Assembly: GCF_947495735.1 (NCBI RefSeq)
Contig: NZ_CANMAA010000007.1
Span: forward strand, 62,001-126,000
Direction: 5' to 3'
DNA from: an uncultured Pseudokineococcus sp.
GTDB taxonomy: Bacteria; Actinomycetota; Actinomycetes; Actinomycetales; Quadrisphaeraceae
Length of the DNA: 64,000 nt
Under the pieces are notes generated by a model. It ran no database searches, was not told the origin of the DNA, and worked only from the letters and a program-made list of their open reading frames with translations. The position numbers and the translations under genes are program-made. Numbering within the stretch: position 1 is the stretch's first letter; each line of letters starts with the position of its first letter. This document shows positions 33,847-40,555 of this stretch, piece after piece.

Positions 33847-34722
33847 TCAGTGGTCGCCGGTGCCGGGCGCGGCGGCGGGGGCGTCGGCCCCGCCGTCGGG
33901 CGTCGTCGGCGCCGGCGCGCCCCGCAGGTGCAGGAACCAGTACGCCAGCGCGACGAAGAGGACGCCGCCGACGGCGTTGCCCATCGCCGCGAACACCCAG
34001 TTGCCGAGGATGTCCCCCCACCCGATGCCCGGGGTCCCCGCCCACCGCGCCGCCGGCAGGAAGAACATGTTGGCCACGACGTGGTCGAAGCCGAGGGCCA
34101 CGAACGCCGTGATGGGGAAGAAGATGGCCAGGACCTTGCCGCCGATGTCCTCGGCGGACAGGGACATCCACACCGCCAGGCAGACCAGCCAGTTGCAGCC
34201 GATCGCGCGCAGGAACACGGCGGCGTCGCTCTCCTCCACCGCCTTCCCGGTGGCGATGGCGGACAGCCGCTCGAACGACGCGGCGGCCGCGCCGCCCTCG
34301 ACCGCGTCCGGTCCGCCGATGACGCCGCTCTGCACGGCCAGGAAGTAGGCCACGAACAGGGCGCCGAGGAGGTTGCCGACCAGCACGACGGACCAGTTGC
34401 GCCCCAGGCGCAGCAGGGTGGCGCGCCGGGTCAGCACCGCCAGCGGCAGCAGCGCCATGTTGCCCGTCAGCAGGTCGGCGCCGGCGACCAGCACGAGCAC
34501 CAGCCCGAGGGTGAACACGACACCGGTCATGAGGGTGGCCATGCCGCCCCAGATCTCCCGGTCCATCCCGGCGCTGACGTCGACGGCCAGCAGCCCGGCG
34601 AAGGCGATGTACGCCCCCGCCAGGAACCCGCTGACGAGCATCTTGGGGACGCTCATCCGCGCCTTCTTCGCCCCGGTCTCGGCGGCGAGGACGGCGATCT
34701 GGTCAGGTGTCTTGAACGCCAC
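33847..34722 (-). CDS. formate/nitrite transporter family channel
   Basis: A 291-aa FNT-family pentameric channel with six TM helices. Family motifs are FLAGAYIAFAGLL, the ADLLTGNMALLPLAVL loop, and the second pore region RAIGCNWLVCLAVWMSLSA, then GFDHVVANMFFLPAA. The last 25 residues are a Pro/Ala/Gly tail. GTG start with GAGG upstream, 9 nt after the NrfD-type gene stop, so it ends the formate dehydrogenase operon. That context favours formate (FocA-like) over nitrite as substrate. Confidence 0.9.
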   Translation of the reverse strand: MAFKTPDQIAVLAAETGAKKARMSVPKMLVSGFLAGAYIAFAGLLAVDVSAGMDREIWGGMATLMTGVVFTLGLVLVLVAGADLLTGNMALLPLAVLTRRATLLRLGRNWSVVLVGNLLGALFVAYFLAVQSGVIGGPDAVEGGAAAASFERLSAIATGKAVEESDAAVFLRAIGCNWLVCLAVWMSLSAEDIGGKVLAIFFPITAFVALGFDHVVANMFFLPAARWAGTPGIGWGDILGNWVFAAMGNAVGGVLFVALAYWFLHLRGAPAPTTPDGGADAPAAAPGTGDH

Positions 34723-34731
34723 GCCCGGTCC

Positions 34732-35868
34732 TCACTCCCCGGCGGTCTCGCGGGCGGCGATGCGCTCCCGCTGCGGGCGCACGACGTACTTGGGGTCCAG
34801 CGTGGACGCGACACCGGCCTCGAAGACGGCCATCCGCGTCAGGAACGACCCGGTGAGCAGGCCGGCCCCGGCCAGCGCCGACACCAGGCGCGAGCGCCGG
34901 CCGACGACCGCCCCGACCGCGCCCGCGACGGTCAGCGCCCGCGCGGCCCGCAGCATCTTCCCCGGACGGCCCTCGTGGAAGGGCTCGCTGACGACCCCGT
35001 GCGCGCTCTCCATCCGGTGGGCGGCGACGAGCTCGGCCGCGGCGCCGATGACCGCCACGCGCGCGGCCGGCCCCGACTGCGCCACCGGCGACAGCACGAG
35101 GCCCGCCCCGGCCCCGGCGGCCAGGGCGCTGCCGCCGAAGACGAAGGGCAGCTCCCGGAACGGCTCGTGCCAGGAGGGGACGGCGGTGTCGGCGAGCAGC
35201 ACCGCCGTGTACGTGGCCAGGAGCGGACCGGTCACGGCGGCCCCGGCCCCCGCGGCGGAGGCCAGCGGCGGCGCCACCCGGCGGGCGAGCCCCGGCAGGC
35301 CGCGCTCCGGCAGCAGCGCGGCGGCCTCGAGCACGGCCGCCGCCCCGCTCAGCGGGCCGAAGGCCGTGAGGATCCACGTCCCGACCGACATCGGGGAGGT
35401 GATCTTGGCGACGCGGAGCATGTTGTAGAAGCGCTCGGGGCGGCCCAGGTCGGCGATGAGGAAGTAGGCGCTGGCCCCGACCGCCGCCAGCGAGGTCACC
35501 CGCAGGCCCCGGCGGGCCTCGACGTCGCCGCGGGCGTCGGCGACGACCGCCAGCATCGACGTCCCCGCCGCCACCCCGCCGCAGAACAGGTAGTAGGCGA
35601 TCTCGTGCGTCCACACCGGCGGCTTGAGGACGGCGCGGCCGTAGTAGGAGGAGAACTCGGCCTCGGGCACCACCGCGTTCGCGTCGCCCTTGCGGCCCCT
35701 CCCCTTCCCCTTGCCGCCGCCCTTCTCGCGCCGGCCCATCCCCGCGTCCCACATGCGCGCGGCCTGGCCGCCGACGGGGTCGGTGCCGGGGACGTGCTGC
35801 CCCGGCTGGTCGGGCTGGCCCGGCTGGCGCGGGGTCGCCTGCGCCGGGGCGTCGTTCCCCGGGCTCAT
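34732..35868 (-). CDS. NrfD/PsrC-type membrane subunit of formate dehydrogenase
   Basis: A 378-aa polytopic membrane protein, NrfD/PsrC type, that would anchor the dehydrogenase and pass electrons to quinone. The first 85 residues are polar, with a Lys/Gly/Arg stretch (GGGKGKGRGRKG). The membrane part begins PPVWTHEIAYYLFCGGVAAG and has YFLIADLGRPERFYNMLR and SPMSVGTWILTAFG, which are NrfD motifs. It replaces the b-type cytochrome FdnI of E. coli. ATG overlaps the iron-sulfur gene stop (ATGA). Confidence 0.88.
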   Translation of the reverse strand: MSPGNDAPAQATPRQPGQPDQPGQHVPGTDPVGGQAARMWDAGMGRREKGGGKGKGRGRKGDANAVVPEAEFSSYYGRAVLKPPVWTHEIAYYLFCGGVAAGTSMLAVVADARGDVEARRGLRVTSLAAVGASAYFLIADLGRPERFYNMLRVAKITSPMSVGTWILTAFGPLSGAAAVLEAAALLPERGLPGLARRVAPPLASAAGAGAAVTGPLLATYTAVLLADTAVPSWHEPFRELPFVFGGSALAAGAGAGLVLSPVAQSGPAARVAVIGAAAELVAAHRMESAHGVVSEPFHEGRPGKMLRAARALTVAGAVGAVVGRRSRLVSALAGAGLLTGSFLTRMAVFEAGVASTLDPKYVVRPQRERIAARETAGE

Positions 35869-37097
35869 CGCCGGCCCGCCGCAGCCGCCGCGGCCGCCGC
35901 GACGCCTACGACCATGAAGCCGGCCGCGGCGAGCATGTGCCGGTACATGGAGGGCAGCTCGCGCGTGGTGACGACCGGGTCCGGCGGCAGGCCGTAGACC
36001 TCGGGCTCGTCGAGCAGCAGGAAGAACGCGCCGTCGCCGCCGACCCCGTCGTCGGGGTCCTCGCCGTACAGGCGGGCCTCGGTGACGCCCACGTCGTGCA
36101 GCTGCTGGCGGCGGCGCTCGGCGCGCTCGCGCAGCTCGTCGAGGTCGCCGAACTGGATGGACTCCGTCGGGCAGGCCTGGGCGCAGGCGGGCGTCTGCCC
36201 CTCCCCCAGCCGGTCGTAGCACAGGGTGCACTTCCAGGCCCGGCCGTCCGACTCGCGCTTGTCGATGACGCCGTAGGGGCACGCCGAGACGCAGTAGCCG
36301 CACCCGTTGCAGATGTCCTCCTGCACGACCACCGTCCCGAACTCCGTGCGGAACAGGGAGCCGGTGGGGCAGACGTCCAGGCAGGCGGCGTGCGTGCAGT
36401 GCTTGCAGACGTTGGACATCATCAGCCAGCGCAGGTCCTGGCGGCCCTCGCCGTCCGGCACCGCGGCGGGCGCCAGCATCCCGGGCATGCCCAGGAACGC
36501 CCCCTCCTGGACGGCCGTGGCGGCCGGGGCGGACGAGCCGCACCCGCCGCTGGGCTTCGGGCCGGCCTTCGCGCCGGAACCGCACCCGCCGCCGCCACCG
36601 CCGGAGCCGCAGCCGCCCCCCCGGGTGGTCTGGGCCGCGGCCACGTCGGCCAGGGGCTGGCCCCCGGGCACCTCGGTGCCCAGCCGGGCCGCCGCCTCGA
36701 ACACGTCGGTCGCCGCGGCGACGACGTCCTGCTGCATCGCGTCCGACGACGCCCCGGTGGCGGCGCCGGCGAAGGGCGAGCCCTGGTTCCCCACGGGACG
36801 GGCCTGCTCGATGAACGCGACCGCCCGCCAGGAGTCCGCCCCGAGGCCGCCGGTGTTGTCGTAGGACATGCCCAGGAGGTCCAGGCCGTCCTCCGGCACC
36901 ATGTTCCACTCCTTGCACGCCACCTCGCAGGCCTTGCAGCCGATGCAGACCGAGGTGTCGGTGAAGAAGCCCTTGCGCGGGGGCGGGTCCGCGTACCCGG
37001 CGTCGCGCGCCGGGTCCAGGAGCCGGCCGGAGAAGCTGTTGGCGTGGATCGTCAGGCCGCCGACCTCCCGGTCGCCGGTGATCACGTCGCGAGCCAT
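35865..37097 (-). CDS. fdnH: formate dehydrogenase iron-sulfur (beta) subunit
   Basis: A 410-aa ferredoxin-like subunit relaying electrons from the Mo/W site to the membrane subunit. Four cysteine clusters are visible: CIGCKACEVAC (51-61), CKHCTHAACLDVC (231-243), CNGCGYCVSAC (263-273), and CTLC (290-293) with CAQAC (305-309). Residues 159-188 are an unusual Gly/Cys-rich insert with C163, C172 and C186. The C-terminus has one TM helix (about 388-408, Ala-rich), as in FdnH. Start ATG shares one base with the alpha-subunit stop (TGATG). Confidence 0.93.
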   Translation of the reverse strand: MARDVITGDREVGGLTIHANSFSGRLLDPARDAGYADPPPRKGFFTDTSVCIGCKACEVACKEWNMVPEDGLDLLGMSYDNTGGLGADSWRAVAFIEQARPVGNQGSPFAGAATGASSDAMQQDVVAAATDVFEAAARLGTEVPGGQPLADVAAAQTTRGGGCGSGGGGGGCGSGAKAGPKPSGGCGSSAPAATAVQEGAFLGMPGMLAPAAVPDGEGRQDLRWLMMSNVCKHCTHAACLDVCPTGSLFRTEFGTVVVQEDICNGCGYCVSACPYGVIDKRESDGRAWKCTLCYDRLGEGQTPACAQACPTESIQFGDLDELRERAERRRQQLHDVGVTEARLYGEDPDDGVGGDGAFFLLLDEPEVYGLPPDPVVTTRELPSMYRHMLAAAGFMVVGVAAAAAAAAGRR

Positions 37098-40000
37098 CAG
37101 CTCTCCTCCAGGGTGGTGTCGGGGTGCGCGTCCAGGACGGCGGCCTCGACGCCGTTCTGCTGGGCCTGCCCCGGTCGGGACCGCACGTCGTGCCGCACGG
37201 ACAGCACCTGCTCCATCTGGTCGGCGCGGTGCCCGGTGCCGGACGGCGTCGTGCCGGCCGACGCCTGCTCGGCGCGGTCCTTGCCCTGCGGGTCGAGGAG
37301 CTCGGCCGTCACCGCGACGGCTCCGGAGGCCATCGTCACCCCGCCGCGGACGCGGTAGGAGTCGATGAGCTCCAGCGACGCGGCGCCTCGCGGCCGCCGT
37401 CCCGGCTGCACGTCGCACGTCCCGGCCTTGAACTCCTGGATGTGCACGTTGGGGTCCAGGGTCAGGTGCGCGAGGTCGTTGACCACGTCGCCGGTCGTCA
37501 GCCCGCCCTGGCCCCAGTGGTAGGGCAGCCAGACCTGGTGGACGACGTCGTTCTGGATCCGCAGCGGCGCGAGCCGGTCGGTCACCAGCACCCGCGCCTC
37601 GACGACGGCGCGCGCGGTGATGACGTGCGCCCAGCCCAGGTGCTCCAGGCCGCGCCCGGCGGCCAGCTCCGGGGACACCTCCATGAACAGCGCGGGCTGC
37701 AGCTCGGACAGGTACGGCAGGAAGCGGCTCATGCCGCCCGCCGTGTGGTGCTCGGTGAGCCGGGAGGTCATCCACACGAACGGGAAGACGCTGCTCCCGC
37801 GCTCGGGCGGCGAGGGGTGCACCTGGTTGAGGTGGTTGGTGTAGATCGCCCGCGCCGGGTTCGCCTGCTGGGTGTACAGGCTGTTGCGGAACGGGGACTC
37901 CGCCGGCTCGTAGTGCGTCGGCAGGGGGCCGTCCACGACCCCCTTGGGCGCGTAGAGCCAGCCCTTGCCGTCGCTCTGCATGATGAACGGGTCGTCGCCG
38001 GCGATCGCCTCGACGCCGGTCGCGCCCTTCCGGGGGCGGTACGACGGGGCCTTCGTCAGCTCGAAGTCGGGGACGTCGTCACCGGTCCACCGCCCGGCCT
38101 CCTCGTCCCACCACACCAGCGCCTTGCGCTCGCTCCACGGCTTGCCGTCGGGGTCGGCCGAGGCGCGGTTGTAGAGCATGCGCCGGTTCATCGGCCAGGC
38201 CCAGCCCCACTCGGGCGCGTGCAGGGACTGCTCGCGCCCGGGCTTGCGCCGCGCCGCCTGGTTGACGCCGTCGGCGTACACCCCGGAGTAGATCCAGCAG
38301 CCGCTGGAGGTCGACCCGTCGGCCTCGAGCGCGGTGTACCCCGGCAGCAGCTCGCCGCTGGCGACGTCGCGACCGTTGATCTCCTGGAGCACCGCCTCGG
38401 CGCTCGGCTCCTGGTCCTCCCCGTGGACGGGGTACTCCCAGGTCACGTCGAGCAGCAGCCGGTCGCGGGGGTCGGTCGAGCCCGCGAGCTTCTCCCGCAT
38501 GCGCCGGCCCAGGTGGTAGAAGAACCACAGGTCGCTCGTGCAGTCGCCGCGGGGGTCGACGGCCTTCTCGCGCCACTGCAGCAGGCGCTGGGTCTGGGTG
38601 AAGGTGCCCTCCTTCTCCACGTGCGCGGCGGCGGGCATGAAGAAGACCTCGGTGCGGCACTCCTCCGTGACGATCTCGCCCGTCTCGACCTCGGGGGCGT
38701 CCTTCCAGAACGTGGCGCTCTCGATCATCACGAGGTCGCGGACCACGAGCCAGTCCAGGTTCGCCATCCCCAGGCGCTGGGCCCGGCCGTTGGCCGACCC
38801 GACCGCCGGGTTCTGGCCCAGGAGGAAGTACCCGAAGATCTTCCCGCCCTCGATCATGTCCATGACCTGGGAGTAGGTCCCGTGGTCGCCGTTGATCTTG
38901 GGCATGGACTCGAACAGGTAGTCGTTCTCGGCCGTCGCGGCGTCGCCGAAGTAGGCCTTCAGCAGGCTGACCATGTAGGCGTCCGCGTTGCCCCAGTAGC
39001 CCTTCTGGTTGCGGCCCTTGATGTCGTCGACGTACTCCGCGAGGGTGCGGTGCTTCTCCGCGTTCGGCATCTGCAGGTACCCGGGCAGCAGGTTGTAGAG
39101 CGTGGGGATGTCCGTGGAGCCCTGGATGCTGGCGTGGCCGCGCAGCGCCATGATCCCGCCGCCGGGACGGCCCATGTTCCCCAGCAGCAGCTGGAGGATG
39201 GCGCCGGTCCGGATGTACTGGACGCCCGTCCCGCGCTGGGTCCAGCCCACGGAGTAGACGAGGGCTCCCGTCTTGTCGCGGCCGGAGTTGGAGATCCACG
39301 CCTCGGCGACCTCGTCGAAGAGGTCCGTCGGGATGCCGCAGACCTCCTGCACCATCTCGGGGGTGTAGCGGGCGAAGTGGCGCTTCATGACCTGCCACAC
39401 CGTCTGCGGGTGCTGCAGCGTCGGGTCGCGCCGGATGCTCTGGTGGTCGACGGGGGCGCCGCCGGAGCCCATGGACTGCCCGGCCTCGGTCTCGCTGTCC
39501 TCGTCCGTGGAGTCCTTGTCGTCGCCCTGCTCCTGCTGGCCGCCGGCGTACTGCCAGGACGCGGTGTCGTAGGTGCGGGTCTCGGAGTCGAAGCCGGAGA
39601 AGAGCCCGTCGAGGTCCTCGGTGTCCTGGAAGTCCTCGCTGATCAGCCAGGAGGCGTTCGTGTACGCCAGGACGTACTCGCGGAAGTCCCGCTCCTGCGT
39701 CAGGACGCGGTTGATGATCGCGCCGAGCAGCACGATGTCCGTGCCCGTGCGGATGGGGACGTAGGTGTCCGCCAGCGCGCTGGTGCGGGTGAAGCGGGGG
39801 TCGATGTGGATGACCTTCGTGCCCCGCGCCTTGGCCTCCATGACCCACTGGAAGCCCACGGGGTGGCACTCGGCCATGTTGGAGCCCTGGATGACGATGA
39901 CGTCGGCGTTGCTCAGGTCCTGCAGGTCACCGGTCGCTCCGCCGCGACCGAACGAGGCGCCCAGACCGGGCACCGTGGCGGAGTGTCATATGCGCGCCTG

Positions 40001-40555
40001 GTTCTCCACCTGGATCGCGCCCATGGCGGTGAACAGCTTCTTGATGAGGTAGTTCTCCTCGTTGTCCAGCGCCGCACCGCCGAGGCTGGCGATCCCCATC
40101 GTGCGGTTGAGCCGGTTGCCCTGGCTGTCGAGGTCCTGCCACCCGCGCCGGCGCGCGTCGATCACCCGGTCGGTGATCATGTCCATGGCCGTGTCGCGGT
40201 CGAGCTCGGTCCACTCCGTGGCGTACGGGGCCCGGTACTTGATGCTCGTCATCCGGCTGTCGCCGTTGACGAGCTGCTCGCTGGCCGCGCCCTTGGGGCA
40301 CAGCCGGCCGCGCGAGTGCGGGCTGTCGGGGTCGCCCTCGATCTGGGTGACGCGGCCGTCCTTGACGAAGACCCGCTGGCCGCAGCCGACGGCGCAGTAC
40401 GGGCAGACCGACTTCGCGACGGAGTCGGCCTCGACCGTGCGCGGGGTGAGGGCCAGCGACCGCTTGGACTGGGTCGCGGCGCCGCGCCCCAGCGGGTCGT
40501 CGCCGGTGAGCTGGCGGTAGACCGGCCACCCCTCGATGAAGGTCTTGAGCCCCAT
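37097..40555 (-). CDS. fdnG: selenocysteine-containing formate dehydrogenase alpha subunit
   Basis: A 1152-aa molybdopterin oxidoreductase oxidising formate to CO2. The N-terminal [4Fe-4S] motif is CPYCAVGCGQ (C51, C54, C58) with C86 in RLCPKG. UGA at 39988-39986 is in frame and encodes Sec190: the reading runs VENQARI-Sec-HSATVPGLGASFGRGG, exactly where formate dehydrogenases carry Sec or Cys. A SECIS-like hairpin follows. The bis-MGD domains include GSNMAECHPVGF, and an acidic linker lies near 340-370. There is no Tat signal (it starts MGLKTFIEGWPVYRQ), so the catalytic side is probably cytoplasmic. ATG with GGGAG upstream. Read as two genes it would be wrong. Confidence 0.94.
39957..39988 (-). 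other. UGA-Sec codon and SECIS-like stem-loop
   Basis: After UGA (39988-39986) come 12 nt, then GTGCCC-GGTCT-GGGCGC (39973-39957). This is a 6-bp stem (one G-T wobble) with loop GGUCU. GGU-CUG falls at nucleotides 22-27 counted from the U of UGA, the same place as in E. coli fdhF, whose SelB-binding loop is also GGUCU. Confidence 0.85.

Follow-up and report, generated by a model that had tools for sequence, protein, structure and literature searches.

A 64,000-nucleotide (nt) stretch of DNA from an uncultured Pseudokineococcus sp. (contig NZ_CANMAA010000007.1; G000:C7:62001-126000), called here the window, carries on its minus strand a four-gene operon, fdhA-fdhB-nrfD-permease, which is judged with a probability of about 0.96 to encode a selenocysteine (Sec)-containing, molybdopterin- and iron-sulfur-dependent formate dehydrogenase (FDH). 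The UGA codon at 39988-39986 is very probably read as Sec at the active site of the alpha subunit, FdhA, which is an ordinary member of the already known actinobacterial Sec FDH kind. The features seen in the sequence are the position of this UGA, both of its flanks, the constraint on a hairpin downstream of it, the Sec machinery in the same genome and the co-occurrence of such machinery with UGA-containing enzymes. An earlier note on the window, made from the letters alone, had proposed a Sec-containing FDH; the sequence comparisons support this reading, and the UGA and hairpin to which it had drawn attention were confirmed.

The fdhA frame runs from the ATG at 40555 to the stop codon at 37097 and is open except for the UGA, which corresponds to residue 190 in the context ARI-U-HSATV. 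As the earlier note had expected, mechanical open reading frame (ORF) calling broke the gene into two false ones, 39986-40555 and 37097-39973. The read-through protein matched the NF041513 family (formate_DH_Act) over residues 6-1069 with 1914.6 bits, above the curated cut-off of 1400, and the separate halves scored 326 and 1549.7 bits. NF041513 describes the same protein, although the window FdhA extends 83 C-terminal residues past the matched range. The Pfam domains Molybdop_Fe4S4, Molybdopterin and Molydop_binding were identified in the sequence. Both halves aligned to the FDH of PDB entry 1h0h and to FdnG of Escherichia coli formate dehydrogenase-N (FDH-N; PDB 1kqf), with the non-standard residue X (Sec) of each placed opposite residue 190. 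With the frames open on both sides, the claim that the UGA interrupts a continuous FDH exactly at the catalytic Sec/Cys site thus held. Since both pieces are open frames, the gene might also yield two products, an iron-sulfur protein made of the N-terminal 189 residues and a restart product from the GTG at 39973; this is extremely improbable, as the restart product would lack residue 190 and the neighbouring His, and the family conserves both halves together.

The closest loci were those of Kineococcus, the best-matching segment being 87% identical in K. rubinsiae (strain B12) and in K. vitellinus. A TGA was present at the site in all 80 best-matching loci (79 by motif and L087 by inspection). 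The earlier note had named homologues with a true stop and no catalytic domain downstream as evidence that would speak against it; the homologues retain the catalytic domain 3' of the same UGA. A wider set of 131 loci gave 128 rows (L156, L159 and L160, without the motif, gave none), of which 126 had TGA, one TGC and one TGT. Among the four genomes of the genus, three carried the UGA enzyme together with a selA match, one of these matches being truncated by a contig end and under the cut-off, and the fourth carried neither. A nonsense mutation or sequencing error that broke a Cys enzyme is conceivable in that UGA is one base from UGC and UGU, and Cys members of the same family occur in 17 genomes of the class. 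It is hardly credible in view of the same UGA in 80/80 best-matching loci and in two further genomes of the genus, the presence of Sec machinery in the genome and the retained hairpin; moreover, 16 Cys members differ at codon +6 relative to the site (Ala, Val or Ser) and in the codon directly before it (-1).

Some relatives showed additional in-frame stops, and enzymes with two Sec residues were considered for them. This was rejected: among those listed, the extra stop lay near codon 1110-1130 and is the ordinary terminator, which falls just inside the matched range. Two loci whose FDH genes are otherwise open around the UGA carried a TAG that may reflect error or decay, L158 at codon 341 of the reading, an exception among the relatives with extra stops, and L049 (Micromonospora andamanensis) in frame at codon -8 before the UGA. 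No match was found in phage records (201-base query) or in viral contigs.

Each of the three stretches folded had the hairpin GGUGCCC-GGUCU-GGGCGCC at 39974-39956 in its minimum-energy structure; counted from the UGA, the stem begins at 11 nt and the loop at 18 nt. The distance of GGU-CUG from the UGA presumably equals that in E. coli fdhF, as the earlier note had stated. The folding energy of the 44-nt stretch was -16.4 kcal/mol. PMC13188914 describes a bacterial selenocysteine insertion sequence (SECIS) by a loop of 3-9 nt with G in the first two positions, a stem of 4-16 base pairs (bp), a UGA-loop distance of 16-37 nt and an energy of at most -7.5, and the 5-nt loop GGUCU, 7-bp stem, 18-nt distance and -16.4 kcal/mol of the window hairpin fall within this description.

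The hairpin is regarded as real because of comparative tests, i.e. covariation at synonymous wobble positions, and not because of its folding energy. In an 80-row set, made up of the window plus 79/80 best-matching loci, the synonymous third bases of codons +5 and +9 formed a standard pair in 80/80 rows, compared with at most 68 in 20,000 shuffles; the pairs were C-G (51), U-A (17), U-G (7), G-U (3) and G-C (2). The same positions were paired in 76 of the 77 unique rows of the wider set (shuffle mean 46.4, maximum 56), and the +6/+8 wobble bases in 75 of the 77 (shuffle maximum 69), the latter pair being flipped from C-G to G-C in 7/126 rows. Corrected mutual information around the UGA (158 rows) placed +5/+9 at the top of all wobble pairs, with 0.364 compared to 0.125 for the next one. 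These counts include shared ancestry, which inflates them; identical rows were collapsed in the 77- and 158-row sets. Codon +7, where it encodes Gly, was GGU in 94/94 rows, whereas GGC prevails in the rest of the window gene (73/113 Gly codons). The stem with loop GGUCU reported by the earlier note is therefore upheld by wobble covariation, and the hairpin is, as judged from sequence comparison, a real constraint at the RNA level that constitutes strong evidence for an actinobacterial SECIS.

The genome check for selA, selB, selC and selD suggested by the earlier note found them all: selD (75119, minus strand), the tRNA-Sec(UCA) gene selC (76201), selA (76440) and selB (77787) were grouped in this order in one stretch of contig C2, away from the fdh contig. 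The profile scores were 408 bits for selA and 372 bits for selD. The window itself contained no tRNA gene.

The co-occurrence was examined in 296 genomes of the class. The NF041513-family cut-off was passed in 80/296 of them and in 53/296 genomes of the phylum. A pattern search, in which the residues around the site and the TGA were fixed and the third base of the -1 codon was left free, gave 68 sites in 66/296 class genomes, i.e. all 61 listed with TGA (G556 aside) and five with split matches. The selA gene scored above the cut-off in 65 of the 66 UGA genomes versus 2 of the 17 Cys genomes, and one of the latter two (G404) also holds a UGA copy. The Cys genomes comprised 15 with a member lacking an in-frame stop, all with Cys at the site (15/15, L113 included), G556, which was listed with one TGA and has TGC at the site (counted as the 16th Cys member), and G360, seen in a partial match. 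The residue at +6 was Ala, Val or Ser in Cys members versus Pro in 106/106 UGA members, and +7 was GGT in only 3/16 Cys members. In 26/296 class genomes, selA was detected with no listed FDH member; 16 of these 26 belong to one family (f90), in which the SelA match does not extend over the N-terminal part of the model. In genome G479, selA was observed alongside a Cys FDH.

Several results weigh against Sec insertion. In the folding check proposed in the earlier note, the hairpin appeared in the minimum-energy folds, but their energies were no lower than those of shuffled controls (z of -0.93, 0.04 and -0.50 for the three stretches). The Rfam model RF01989 (SECIS_3) matched at the UGA over its whole length, with several model pairs broken and with 34.7 bits (E 2.3e-6), under the curated gathering cut-off of 63. 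SelB of the window genome scored 240.4 bits in the genome search, below the cut-off of 242.25, and 247.2 bits as a called protein, in which the SelB winged-helix domain (SelB-wing_3) was found. Finally, genome G495 has the UGA enzyme with no selA match at E 1e-60, and its best selB match, a frame of 417 residues, reached 203 bits, below the cut-off. This may represent a selenoprotein gene left without machinery by loss in progress, or an assembly gap. The expectation that Sec use implies selABCD was thus borne out in the window genome, which has all four genes, and not in G495; hence, finding the UGA enzyme does not always mean that the machinery is present too.

The G495 case also fits decoding of the UGA as a residue other than Sec, by suppression or programmed read-through, as does the leakiness of UGA as a stop when C comes next. 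Such decoding is nevertheless very unlikely, considering that Sec machinery accompanies 65/66 UGA members, Sec and Cys exchange at the site, the solved enzymes aligned to it are named selenocysteine-containing and the covarying hairpin has SECIS geometry.

With Sec insertion as the preferred reading, a ribosome arriving at the UGA would meet the mRNA hairpin, with its stem beginning 11 nt past that codon, and SelB with Sec-tRNA-Sec would bind the GGU loop so that Sec is inserted at residue 190. Sec190 would then be the metal ligand where formate is oxidised, the electrons would pass from FdhB to the NrfD-type membrane subunit and on to the quinone pool, and the permease would move formate. SelB binding, Sec insertion, the substrate, the metal ligand and the electron path are roles known for these families, and they are assigned to the window proteins by family membership.

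The codon preceding the UGA displayed an additional bias. When 497 columns conserved among 106 sequences (from 111 loci) were scanned for unusual codons, the -1 codon ranked first, ahead of the hairpin loop. Where it encodes Ile, it was AUU or AUA in 101/104 cases, while AUC made up 3814 of the 4060 Ile codons of the same genes. A set of actinobacterial UGA-FDHs that included other FDH families was compiled (158 unique rows from 171 loci, with duplicates and motif-less loci dropped). The -1 codon ended in A or U in 147/157 of these rows, where the codon usage of the individual genes would predict 17.7; Met occupies this position in the 158th row. Val was encoded by GUU in 10/11 rows, and in the seven Leu rows (UUG 6, UUA 1) the last base was mostly G. 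The class-wide pattern search, blind to the third base of this codon, revealed ATT 41, ATA 25 and GTT 2 times (68/68 A/U-ending).

The bias was missing in the UGA-FDHs of Pseudomonadota (GUC in 8/8, all plasmid-borne) and in the Cys members, where all 16 codons encoded Val (GTC 8, GTG 8, GTT 0); L155, a Cys member of another FDH family, has AUC. A general rule for actinobacterial Sec UGA codons was rejected, since among 40 selD loci with UGA, all from classes other than that of the window and including one mis-hit by sequence (L257), 11 codons were A/U-ending versus 10.3 expected. For four of the genomes in this control (G046, G057, G145 and G274), there were FDH rows as well, and these had ATA or GTT as the -1 codon. 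By these sequence counts, the bias is tied to Sec, to FDH and to Actinomycetota, and it is a real statistical regularity in which the -1 codon appears constrained about as strongly as the SECIS loop. Positions -2 and +13 were biased too (z of 11.9 and 15.0). In a folding test of the idea that the base before the UGA keeps this codon single-stranded, changing -1 to C lowered the accessibility of the UGA by 0.13 on average; other wobble changes lowered it equally or more (0.28 for -3 to T), and the apical stem was unchanged on average, so an explanation of the bias by folding is not supported.

It is tentatively suggested, as a possibility somewhat less probable than its opposite, that the Sec-recoding signal of Actinomycetota FDHs extends 5' of the UGA to a context element, specific to lineage and gene, that requires the -1 codon to end in A or U (AUU, AUA or GUU rather than AUC, GUC or GUG). 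Such an element might govern how SelB is balanced against release factor 2, or keep the UGA out of GC-rich pairing. No description of the rule was found in the literature searched, subscription papers being largely outside its reach; in the accessible portions, the word 'upstream' occurred once, on another matter, in PMC12013277 and 0 times in PMC13188914. The rule seems undescribed and may be new, and it gives an inexpensive starting point, open to test, for learning how high-GC bacteria distinguish a Sec UGA from a stop.

The coordinates of the operon and its elements are collected in Table 1.

Table 1. Positions of the fdh operon genes and recoding elements in the window.
Feature	Position	Strand	Basis
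fdhA, FDH alpha subunit, 1152 residues with UGA as predicted Sec190	37097..40555	-	NF041513 and Pfam
UGA at the catalytic Sec/Cys position	39986..39988	-	Conserved UGA; alignment to 1h0h/1kqf
AUA codon before the UGA, sole non-AUC Ile codon of the gene (40 AUC, 1 AUA, 0 AUU)	39989..39991	-	Codon counts; actinobacterial FDH-wide bias
Putative SECIS apical hairpin, 7-bp stem, loop GGUCU at 39967-39963	39956..39974	-	Fold; Rfam SECIS_3; wobble pairs 39971-39959 and 39968-39962 covary
fdhB, iron-sulfur electron-transfer subunit, start overlaps fdhA stop	35865..37097	-	Fer4 domains; best NCBIfam FDH-beta TIGR01582 below cut-off (170.9 vs 334.7)
NrfD-type membrane anchor subunit	34732..35868	-	PF03916 NrfD, 69 bits; frame from ATG 35868
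Formate/nitrite family permease	33847..34722	-	PF01226, 250.7 bits; TIGR00790, 213.8 vs cut-off 232.3

Complexes of the FDH-N type consist of alpha, beta and cytochrome b gamma subunits. The third gene of the window operon is NrfD-type, unlike that of E. coli FDH-N, a cytochrome b; no cytochrome b gamma subunit was found in the operon, to which the search was confined. Of the 80 loci, 43 are at least 15 kb long, and all of these contained fdhB and the NrfD gene (43/43 each), 3 the permease and 32 a match to at least one of selA, selB and selD. In K. rubinsiae (L017), selD and tRNA-Sec were located just past the fdh genes, and L109 and L110, from two more genomes of the genus, likewise had the sel and fdh genes together. 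This leads us to infer a separation of the two clusters in the window genome.

A related arrangement has been reported for the cultured actinobacterium Actinomycetospora chiangmaiensis DSM 45062, for which PMC7176365 lists an FDH1 cluster of Sec FdhA, FdhB, FdhC, permease, SelA and SelB. Like the window, it holds the Sec alpha subunit, FdhB, FdhC and permease together, but selA and selB lie within the cluster, whereas the window genome has selDCAB on another contig. According to the same paper, the FDH1-cluster proteins except the permease were detected at low abundance, as were SelA, SelB and SelD; in the absence of added selenite, formate built up to a molar ratio of about 0.6, and with selenite there was hardly any accumulation, which the authors credit to FDH1 and FDH3 of the three Sec FDHs of this strain. 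FdhA and SelD are named the most widespread bacterial selenoproteins in PMC5029168, which also lists transfers of the Sec trait between actinobacteria. On the conjugative plasmid pYA7-1a of Arthrobacter sp. YA7-1 (L201, NZ_CP110115.1, 12001-25065), fdh, iron-sulfur, nrfD, selD, selA and selB genes adjoin a Tn3 transposase, and here, judging by gene content, the Sec trait and its selenoprotein exist as one mobile package. The analysis confirms a gene that plain ORF calling halves, in the genus of K. radiotolerans, whose genome paper (PMC2587704) treats formate respiration and FDHs, the words 'selenium' and 'selenocysteine' being absent from its main text as accessed.

In the N-terminus of FdhA (40405-40555; MGLKTFIEG...SKRSLALTPR...VCPYC), the first iron-sulfur motif is not preceded by an Arg-Arg pair. 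As no obvious twin-arginine translocation (Tat) signal is present, the active site may lie on the cytoplasmic side, unlike that of E. coli FDH-N. An acidic low-complexity stretch of FdhA was also noticed at 39476-39538 (QQEQGDDKDSTDEDSETEAGQ), where the alignments to 1h0h and 1kqf break. In SelB of L016 (7781-9970), a Pro-Ala repeat linker (RPGPAAA repeated) was observed ahead of the C-terminal winged helix.

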